From assembly GCF_000708885.1 (NCBI RefSeq), contig NZ_JEOE01000007.1:1-64000 (forward strand): DNA of 64,000 nt. The letters are read 5' to 3'. Source of the stretch: Cellulomonas sp. HZM (GTDB lineage Bacteria > Actinomycetota > Actinomycetes > Actinomycetales > Cellulomonadaceae). Shown here piece after piece: positions 1,841-3,769 of this stretch; position 1 is the stretch's first letter; each line of letters begins with the position of its first letter. The position numbers and the translations under genes are program-made. The notes under the pieces were generated by a model. That model had not been told where the DNA came from. It worked only from the letters and a program-made list of their open reading frames with translations, and did not search any database.

Positions 1841-3613
1841 TCAGCGCTGGTGGCGGTTGACCGCGGAGACGATCGCCTTGAGCGAGGCCGTGGTGATCGA
1901 CGGGTCGATCCCGACGCCCCAGAGGATGTCGTCGCCGATCGCGCACTCGACGTACGCGGCCGCGGTCGCGTCGCCGCCGGCGGACAGCGCGTGCTCGGCG
2001 TAGTCGAGCACCGCGACGTCGACGCCCTGGGCGTTGAGCGCCGCCACGAACGCCGCGACCGGGCCGTTCCCCGAGCCCTCGATGGTGCGCTCCTCGCCGC
2101 GGTCCACGAGGTCGACGACGAGGGTGTCCGGCCCGTCCTGCACGCTCGTCGCGCGCGTGCCACGCAGTGACAGCCGGCCCCACGGCACGAGGTCGCCGAA
2201 GTCCTGGGCAGGGGTGTCGACCGCAGCGGCCTCCACCGGCAGGTACTCGTCGACGAAGATGCGCCACAGCTCGTCGGCCGTGACCTCGGTCCCGTGCTCG
2301 TCGGTGTGCCGCTGCACCACCTGCGAGAACTCGATCTGCAGACGGCGCGGCAGGTCCAGGTCCTTCTCGGACTTCATCAGGTAGCTGATGCCGCCCTTCC
2401 CGGACTGCGAGTTCACGCGGATGATCGCCTCGTAGGAGCGCCCGACGTCCTTGGGGTCGATCGGCAGGTACGGGACCGCCCACACGACGTCGTCGACGGT
2501 CTTGCCCACAGCGGCCGAACGCTGCTCGAGCGCGTCCAGCCCCTTCTTGATCGCGTCCTGGTGCGAGCCCGAGAACGCCGTGAACACCAGGTCGCCGCCG
2601 TACGGGTGCCGCTCGTTCACGGGCAGCTGGTTGCAGCGCTCGACCGTGCGGCGGATGCGGTCCATGTCGGAGAAGTCGATCTCCGGGTCGATGCCCTGGC
2701 TGAACAGGTTCATGCCCAGCGTCACCAGGCACACGTTCCCGGTGCGCTCGCCGTTGCCGAACAGGCAGCCCTCGATGCGGTCCGCGCCGGCCATGTAGCC
2801 CAGCTCGGCGGCCGCGACCGCGGTGCCCCGGTCGTTGTGCGGGTGCAGGCTCAGCACCACCGACTCGCGGTAGCGCAGGTTGCGGCTCATCCACTCGATC
2901 GAGTCGGCGTACACGTTGGGGGTCGCCATCTCGACCGTCGCGGGCAGGTTGACGATCACCGGGCGGTCGGGCGTGGGCTGCCACTCCTCGAGCACCGCGT
3001 TGCAGATCCGCAGCGCGAACTCGAGCTCGGTCCCCGTGTACGACTCGGGCGAGTACTCGTAGTACACGTCCGTGTCCGGGACCAGCTCCTCGTACTTCTT
3101 GCAGAACCGCGCACCCGAGACGGCGATGTCGACGATGCCGTCCTCGTCGGAGCGGAACACCACGTCGCGCTGCAGCGTCGAGGTCGAGTTGTACAGGTGG
3201 ACGATGGCCTGCTTCGCGCCGGCGATCGCCTCGTAGGTCCGCTCGATCAGGTGCTCGCGCGCCTGCGTCAGCACCTGGATGACGACGTCGTCGGGGATGA
3301 GGTGCTCGTCGATCAGCTGGCGGACGAAGTCGAAGTCCGTCTGCGACGCCGCCGGGAACCCGACCTCGATCTCCTTGTAGCCCATGTCGACCAGCAGCTG
3401 GAACATCTCCAGCTTGCGCGCGGGGTTCATCGGCTCGATCAGGGCCTGGTTGCCGTCACGCAGGTCGACCGCGCACCAGCGCGGGGCCTTGGTGATGCGC
3501 GCGTCGGGCCAACGTCGGTCGGGCAGGTCGACGACGATCTGCTCGTGGAACGGCCGGTACTTGTGGACCGGCATGCCCGAGGGCTGCTGCGCGCTCGTCT
3601 CGGAATAGCTCAT
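1841..3613 (-). CDS. leuA: 2-isopropylmalate synthase
   Basis: A 590-residue enzyme condensing acetyl-CoA with 2-oxoisovalerate, the committed step of leucine synthesis. The catalytic TIM barrel carries [16 protein letters not shown] (residues ~47-62), [20 protein letters not shown], and the metal-binding LHPHNDRG. The C-terminal ~150 residues are the leucine-sensing regulatory domain ([17 protein letters not shown]...). Length and the [19 protein letters not shown] start fit the long actinobacterial form. The ATG at 3613 has a clear GAAGGAG Shine-Dalgarno 8 nt upstream, and that site can be sequestered by the leader described separately. The gene appears to be transcribed alone, ending near a large inverted repeat. 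Confidence 0.97.
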
Positions 3614-3621
3614 GGGGACTG

Positions 3622-3717
3622 CTCCTTCGCTGCGGGGGTTGGCTGCCGGCCAGCACGCACGAGAACCCGCGGCGAGGATGTGGCCTAGATGGCCTCGCCG
3701 CGGCAGCGAAGAAGGAG
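3622..3717 (-). promoter_or_regulatory. leuA translational attenuator (SD-sequestering leader)
   Basis: The leuA Shine-Dalgarno region (minus strand GCAGCGAAGGAG, 3633-3622) is complementary to the Leu-codon region of the leader peptide (3717-3703). CTTCGCTGC (3711-3703) pairs with GCAGCGAAG over 9 bp, or CTCCTTC (3717-3711) pairs exactly with the SD GAAGGAG. An independent 11-bp hairpin (3693-3703 with 3667-3677) sits inside the loop and holds the leader stop codon. Inferred mechanism: a ribosome stalled at Leu codons covers the 5' arm and frees the leuA SD, while rapid completion of the peptide lets the arm hide it. There is no T-run, so translational control is more likely than transcription termination. 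Confidence 0.7.
3667..3703 (-). repeat. 11-bp hairpin within the leuA leader
   Basis: Perfect inverted repeat of 11 bp (3667-3677 and 3693-3703) with a 15-nt loop that contains the leader peptide stop codon (TAG, 3687-3685). It can form together with the longer SD pairing because the two share at most one base. Confidence 0.75.
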
Positions 3718-3732
3718 GGTGGTCCCGAGCAC
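3685..3732 (-). CDS. leuL: leuA leader peptide ([15 protein letters not shown])
   Basis: A 15-codon reading frame with GTG start and TAG stop, encoding [15 protein letters not shown]. Codons 6-8 are three consecutive leucines (CTC CTT CTT), using CTT, a codon not favoured in such GC-rich genes. The frame lies 119 bp upstream of leuA on the same strand. Its start is supported by TAGGGT exactly 6 nt before the GTG, with TTGCCA 19 nt further upstream. Leucine leader peptides ahead of leuA have been proposed in actinobacteria; this one has all the expected parts. The symbol is used by analogy only. Confidence 0.75.
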
Positions 3733-3738
3733 GGCGCC

Positions 3739-3769
3739 ACCCTACTCCCGGGCCGACCCGCGTTGGCAA
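3739..3769 (-). promoter_or_regulatory. Candidate leuA promoter
   Basis: On the minus strand TTGCCA (3769-3764) and TAGGGT (3744-3739) are separated by 19 nt. TTGCCA matches five of six bases of TTGACA. The -10 ends 6 nt before the leader peptide GTG, so the transcript probably begins at or next to that codon. Confidence 0.6.

Follow-up and report, generated by a model that had tools for sequence, protein, structure and literature searches.

Judged by its sequence, the leader that directly precedes leuA in Cellulomonas sp. HZM is a LEU element as described by Seliverstov et al. (2005; PMC1262725), an architecture that was already known, and we consider it probable, at roughly 70%, that this element works as a ribosome-controlled translational attenuator of leuA. 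According to the 2005 paper, most Actinobacteria carry this element upstream of leuA, and it consists of a leucine-run leader peptide, a base stem between the run and the Shine-Dalgarno (SD) region, a pseudoknot, and an alternative hairpin (PMC1262725). The original prediction, too, mentions that leucine leaders before actinobacterial leuA had been proposed. The genome list given there is without Cellulomonas and includes other actinobacteria, and apart from leuA the only site reported for the element is one transposase gene. Its authors favoured a binding protein over attenuation, given the S. coelicolor leucine-codon mutations (Craster 1999, cited in PMC1262725) that reportedly failed to fit a classical attenuator. 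The evidence from codons and sister elements presented here differs from that account in pointing to codon sensing and to a wider gene set.

Architecture of the leuA leader

Within the window (the whole 64,000-nt stretch of DNA that was analysed), all parts of the element lie on the minus strand. The leader reading frame (3685..3732), which is conserved, runs for 15 codons from GTG at 3732 to TAG at 3687-3685, and codons 6-8 are, as predicted, the leucine sensor codons CTC (3717-3715), CTT (3714-3712), and CTT (3711-3709), together 3709..3717. A -10-like hexamer, TAGGGT (3739..3744), stands 6 nt 5' of the start codon in a leaderless geometry; a generic sigma-70 scan did not find a promoter at this hexamer. 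The separate 11-bp hairpin of the original prediction, here P1 (3703-3693 with 3677-3667), is likewise present and conserved, with a 5' arm CCGCGGCGAGG (3693..3703), a 3' arm CCTCGCCGCGG (3667..3677), and a 15-nt loop (3678..3692) that holds both the stop codon of the leader and one strand of the pseudoknot, GGCCA (3685-3681). The pseudoknot partner TGGCC (3648..3652) is followed by the leuA SD arm GCAGCGAAGGAG (segment D, 3622..3633) and by leuA itself (1841..3613, ATG at 3613), which encodes a 590-aa 2-isopropylmalate synthase matching NCBIfam NF002991 and TIGR00970 above cut-off. Segment A of the base stem, the anti-SD arm (3703..3714), pairs with 3633-3622 over 12 bp, and its base 3703 doubles as the first base of P1. 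Position before leuA, a leader with a Leu run, the 12-bp run-SD stem, and the GGCCA/TGGCC pseudoknot are the points of likeness to the published element (PMC1262725); the pseudoknot, as we read the locus, is a part of the element that had been overlooked in the original prediction. The leader RNA is predicted to fold at -61.7 kcal/mol, compared with -48.9 (sd 3.8) in shuffled sequences, none of 200 being as good.

Two details of the SD pairing need qualification. CTCCTTC is the exact complement of GAAGGAG at this locus, as claimed, and this is not general: the final helix pair occurs in 3 of 35 near-relative rows, most relatives carrying GAAGGAC where the window has GAAGGAG. Furthermore, CTCCTTC and CTTCGCTGC, which had been described as two separate pairings with the SD side, overlap by one base and both use GAAG, so that the shared bases rule out both at once. 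What can form is either an unbroken 12-bp helix between 3714-3703 and 3633-3622, which includes one G-U pair, or a helix of CTCCTT and CGCTGC interrupted by a 3-nt bulge.

No Rfam family, T-box and riboswitch families included, reached its gathering score in the window, and a relaxed threshold gave three chance-level matches, all on the other strand. The general idea is like that of Leu_leader and other Rfam attenuators.

Conservation across the class

A first LeuA search of 39 relatives gave matches in 37 and led to 30 loci with the window counted, six further matches lying outside the set; a second search, of 591 relatives, those near by LeuA identity being Cellulomonas, added 80 named loci. 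The expected conservation of the Leu run and the hairpin is found, with both present in the same frame in 109 of the 110 leuA loci (window counted; 104 distinct element sequences, some species recurring). The lone exception is a Cellulomonadaceae MAG (L074), where no such element is seen in the 300 nt upstream of the match to LeuA. The distance from the hairpin to the leuA start keeps within a fairly narrow range (median, 52.5 nt; 10-90%, 45-64; n = 180).

A covariance model built from 43 leaders matched in 189 of the 197 genomes sampled within the class, downstream genes in this survey being checked solely in the 60 multi-match genomes. A draw from the phylum gave matches in 12 of 119 genomes, of which 10 are labelled own, order, or class and 2 phylum only. 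The window's own genome has one strong match (2.3e-13) and five weaker ones (E 0.015 to 0.64); one of these five, L113, was inspected as a possible second copy and rejected as a chance match.

Leader codons and leaderless start

The 183 leuA loci yield 151 distinct leaders, and in these the sensor positions encode Leu in 148, 148, and 151 cases, with CTC, CTT, and CTG as the only Leu codons. Their third positions are variable (entropy 1.51, 1.22, and 0.47 bits) and positions 1 and 2 nearly invariant; a first-position C-to-T change, which gives Phe, occurs once in 453 codons, though its G-U pair with the SD purines would survive. Two hairpin codons show the reverse pattern (entropy 1.08 and 0.87 at position 2; 0.27 and 0 at position 3). 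Because third positions vary in the run and position 2 varies in the hairpin codons, the run is kept as Leu codons and the hairpin as RNA. The Leu codons are also unusual in kind, CTT accounting for 51.7% of the 592 Leu codons in leaders versus 1.3% of 4628 in leuA.

Any anti-SD CUCCUU reads as leucine in one frame, and the Leu codons could on that account be a by-product of SD pairing, all the more as the SD-core pairs hardly vary and alone carry little information. We regard this as very improbable, since the frame is the same in all 109 element loci and has an in-frame leaderless start, the wobble-tolerated Phe changes are nearly absent, and the rare-codon bias is also found at GTA in leuB leaders (see below), where anti-SD pairing does not explain it.

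The prediction that the leader is leaderless-initiated agrees with the wider set: 171 of 183 leuA loci have a TANNNT motif 5-9 nt upstream of an ATG or GTG that is in frame, the corresponding counts for the other frames being 3/183 and 0/183. The spacing is 6 or 7 nt in 147 loci, an SD-like motif is present in 2 of 171, and the leader looks leaderless by these measures. The leader stop follows the third Leu codon by 21, 24, or 27 nt in 178/183 loci, which may weakly hint at the distance that frees the run from a terminating ribosome, a spacing that the hairpin arm also forces.

Published leaders share several of these features. In its entry for leuL1 of Streptomyces lividans, PMC8079986 describes a leaderless start, a Leu run, MRFGLLLLSCRGEGL, no typical terminator, and a position before leuA; leuL1 is called an attenuator there by RNA-seq annotation, and the passages on it give no SD-masking mechanism. 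A passage of PMC4974804 reports a ribosome-protected uORF before leuA in M. abscessus. The mycobacterial cysteine attenuators mentioned in PMC13236596 are alike by description in their leaderless uORF, sensor codons, and translation attenuation, the amino acid there being Cys.

Pairing between the run and the leuA SD

Pairing of the run is stronger with the SD region of its own locus than with those of other loci (mean, -12.62 versus -10.97 permuted; sd 0.19; 174 leuA loci). The difference is retained in 166 distinct rows when partners are permuted within families (-12.57 versus -11.72; sd 0.13; 0/2000), a test from which duplicates were removed and in which rows inside one family are still related. 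The pseudoknot behaves in the same way, with the loop scoring 16.83 against its own downstream strand and 14.97 against permuted ones (sd 0.18; 183 loci) and, under the same within-family permutation, 16.91 versus 16.42 in 175 distinct rows (sd 0.11; 0/2000). For the run-SD pair, the cognate signal is clear in the window's family f1 (own, -15.57; permuted, -14.39; 1/1000 permutations; 32 rows), in f17 (2/1000), in f35 (0/1000), and in the Demequina group (8/1000). Significance is not reached in f42, f19, f32, f34, or the Promicromonospora group (72 to 208 of 1000), and the Arthrobacter group shows no cognate signal (463/1000). Arthrobacter-type leaders such as L031 and L091 retain the run and the hairpin and have weak run-SD pairing (-6.0 and -6.4 kcal/mol); the output step may differ in leaders of this type.

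The check that had been proposed, for compensatory changes among close relatives, has a mixed outcome: by pairing energy in any register the own partner is better, and in a fixed register 192 of 2000 partner shuffles reach the observed value (35 distinct rows, Cellulomonadaceae and near relatives; not significant). Fixed-register covariation in subsets of the near-relative pairs is equally not significant (outer five pairs, 913/5000; helix columns 2 and 3, 479/5000). Of these 35 rows, 32 to 35 form the pairs of the SD core, and the outer five columns are often unpaired. A four-segment logic, in which the P1 3' arm would fall on the SD, was set aside: its mean is -10.67 (z -0.74 versus shuffled SD regions), compared with -12.62 (z -1.70) for the Leu arm.

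A probable ribosome-controlled switch

We modelled SD exposure with a 30-nt ribosome footprint masked and the pseudoknot ignored. Mean exposure in 153 leaders is 0.235 without a ribosome, 0.473, 0.425, and 0.369 with a ribosome at the three Leu codons, and 0.322 at the stop, values that follow partly by construction, as masking the arm frees the SD. The mean over the three Leu codons exceeds the value at the stop in 110/153 leaders, and the peak is broad, a ribosome placed one or two codons ahead of the run giving nearly as much exposure (0.462 and 0.470). The corresponding values for the window are 0.169 without a ribosome, 0.370, 0.431, and 0.280 at the Leu codons, and 0.169 at the stop. When tails are swapped between species, the off state becomes leakier (0.318) and the gain is 0.137 versus 0.214, the cognate gain being larger in 96/153. 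Within the limits of a crude model with a broad peak, these values agree with a stalled ribosome exposing the SD and a completed leader hiding it.

We infer from these observations that a stalled ribosome would release the SD in response to leucine supply. Transcription would start at or adjoining the leader start codon, as the hexamer pattern suggests, and a leuA mRNA from there would begin with the leader frame. With plentiful Leu-tRNA, the ribosome would reach the stop in the P1 loop, leaving the Leu-codon arm free to pair with the leuA SD and turning leuA off. When charged Leu-tRNA is scarce, it would wait at the first or second Leu codon and cover the arm, so that the SD would open and leuA would be on; P1 and the pseudoknot could stay folded during this wait. 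The comparative evidence agrees with the unmasking of leuA by a stalled ribosome that was originally predicted, and this Leu-codon-sensing translational attenuator appears to be the best-supported reading, gaining from evidence absent in the 2005 paper. The fixed-register null, the Arthrobacter group without a cognate signal, the broad model peak, and the Leu-codon mutants of S. coelicolor that reportedly disagree with classical attenuation count against it.

Leader translation could instead govern transcription, through Rho or through pausing, and not translation start. The Corynebacterium glutamicum leuL, which shares a Leu-run leader before leuA, is described in the passages on it in PMC4046766 and PMC8709942 as a transcriptional attenuator, which speaks for such control and against a translational reading. 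We nevertheless think it unlikely, since a scan for intrinsic terminators in 3560-3830 found 0 sites, leuL1 of S. lividans is likewise reported to be without a typical terminator (PMC8079986), conservation of the pairing falls on the SD arm itself, and the distance from hairpin to start is fairly narrow in range.

Sister elements before other genes

The 60 multi-match genomes hold 127 matches, one of which (L025) was already in the set. By downstream ORF, the other 126 comprise 75 leuA-like matches (second copies included, with L175 at 26% identity and L216 at 32% as distant members), 28 leuB, 8 leuC, and 15 left unclassified by blastp. All eight leuC leaders have three Leu codons and a leaderless start, and the leader-to-gene distance is 41-47 nt in the 5/8 with an assigned start. 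In these five, the energy of pairing between the run and the leuC SD region lies between -6.6 and -15.5 kcal/mol (z between -0.68 and -2.81 versus shuffles), and leuD lies downstream of leuC in L288.

The leuB leaders carry a different codon set, with MRSVFVLIDCRGEA and MRQVLVLITCRGGA as examples. The leaderless pattern is present in 20/28 loci, which give 16 distinct peptides, and Val, Ile, and Leu occur together in 16/16 of these and in 3/138 leuA leaders. By eye, six of the eight loci without the leaderless pattern also have Val, Ile, and Leu, L167 is without Val, and L185 could not be parsed. With loci not thinned for relatedness, GTA accounts for 62.5% of 40 leuB-leader Val codons versus 1.0% of 1022 in leuB, and ATT for 40.7% of 27 Ile codons versus 3.0% of 366. 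Downstream of leuB we find ilvE in L276, L281, L283, and L286 and, by eye, in several other stretches, though not in L275 and L279 (by eye); in L281 there is also a fragment with citramalate synthase (cimA) as its best match, below the curated cut-off. With Leu only before leuA and leuCD and Val, Ile, and Leu before leuB-ilvE, the codon set tracks the operon. Every leuB locus (28/28) is in a genome that also carries a leuA element.

The leuB start lies 86-690 nt from the leader in 26/28 loci (by the start rule), often behind a small conserved ORF, and the output step of the leuB type may differ from SD masking. This small ORF, of about 20-45 codons and ending in a motif like ALQEAMDRRDNGG, stands between leader and leuB in L192, L204, L226, L261, L286, and others; a strict regular expression matches it in 14/28 leuB loci, and L198 has a variant. 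Five examples gave no NCBIfam match and no Pfam match above cut-off. A profile of the small ORF finds it in 26/98 class genomes at E 0.01, and it also occurs before leuB in two f34 genomes where a LEU-type leader was not seen. In L286, an ORF for a ROK-like regulator (by eye) lies between the small ORF and leuB at about 528-1857.

In three of the 15 unclassified matches (L220, L231, and L238, all of family f19), the LEU-type leader carries Leu/Val codons and is followed by an ORF for a free-standing protein like the LeuA allosteric domain; PF08502 (LeuA_dimer) matches above cut-off in L220 (2.4e-6) and below it in L231 and L238 (0.075 and 0.044). A fourth, L207, belongs to a leuB-ilvE operon in which a ROK-like regulator (named by eye) stands ahead of leuB, and the other 11 unclassified matches were taken as chance or left unassigned, 8/8 of those scored being without the leaderless pattern. 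Versions before leuC, leuB-ilvE, or a free-standing LeuA domain were not found in the published literature, weak evidence given how thinly subscription journals were covered, and the list of eight leaders given for S. lividans in PMC8079986 has none before leuB or leuC.

These sister elements bear on the 2005 proposal that the element is a site for a regulatory protein, with ML1624 orthologs, which have a DEAD-box helicase domain, as the candidate and with Leu codons that matter solely as RNA. Such a site would fit the P1 sequence, which is unusually constant for a plain helix, and the codon mutants that were reportedly not classical (PMC1262725). We consider it quite unlikely, because the Leu codons vary at third positions and hardly in amino acid, the frame and the leaderless start are conserved, and the sister elements keep the hairpin and change their codons to Val/Ile/Leu before leuB-ilvE. 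As the codon sets match the operon, we favour codon sensing over protein binding.

Significance

We lean slightly toward a wider reading, in which Actinomycetes use the LEU element as a portable module that can be re-coded, with a leaderless leader, a stop-in-loop hairpin, and a pseudoknot as the common scaffold before leuA, leuCD, leuB-ilvE(-cimA), and the ORF of a free-standing LeuA regulatory domain. The sensor codons would be rewritten to the amino acids of the operon, with rare codons (CTT, GTA, and ATT) chosen for sensitivity, and before leuA and leuC they would also lock the SD. Since the same bases serve as sensor and as lock, a mutation in the Leu codons can at the same time undo the SD lock, and this overlap could explain the paradoxical-looking Leu-codon mutants of 1999. 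The element is very common in the sampled class, yet its mechanism has been disputed since that mutant study and the protein-binding proposal of 2005. The sister elements with other codons provide natural controls inside the same genomes and make the disputed mechanism testable.
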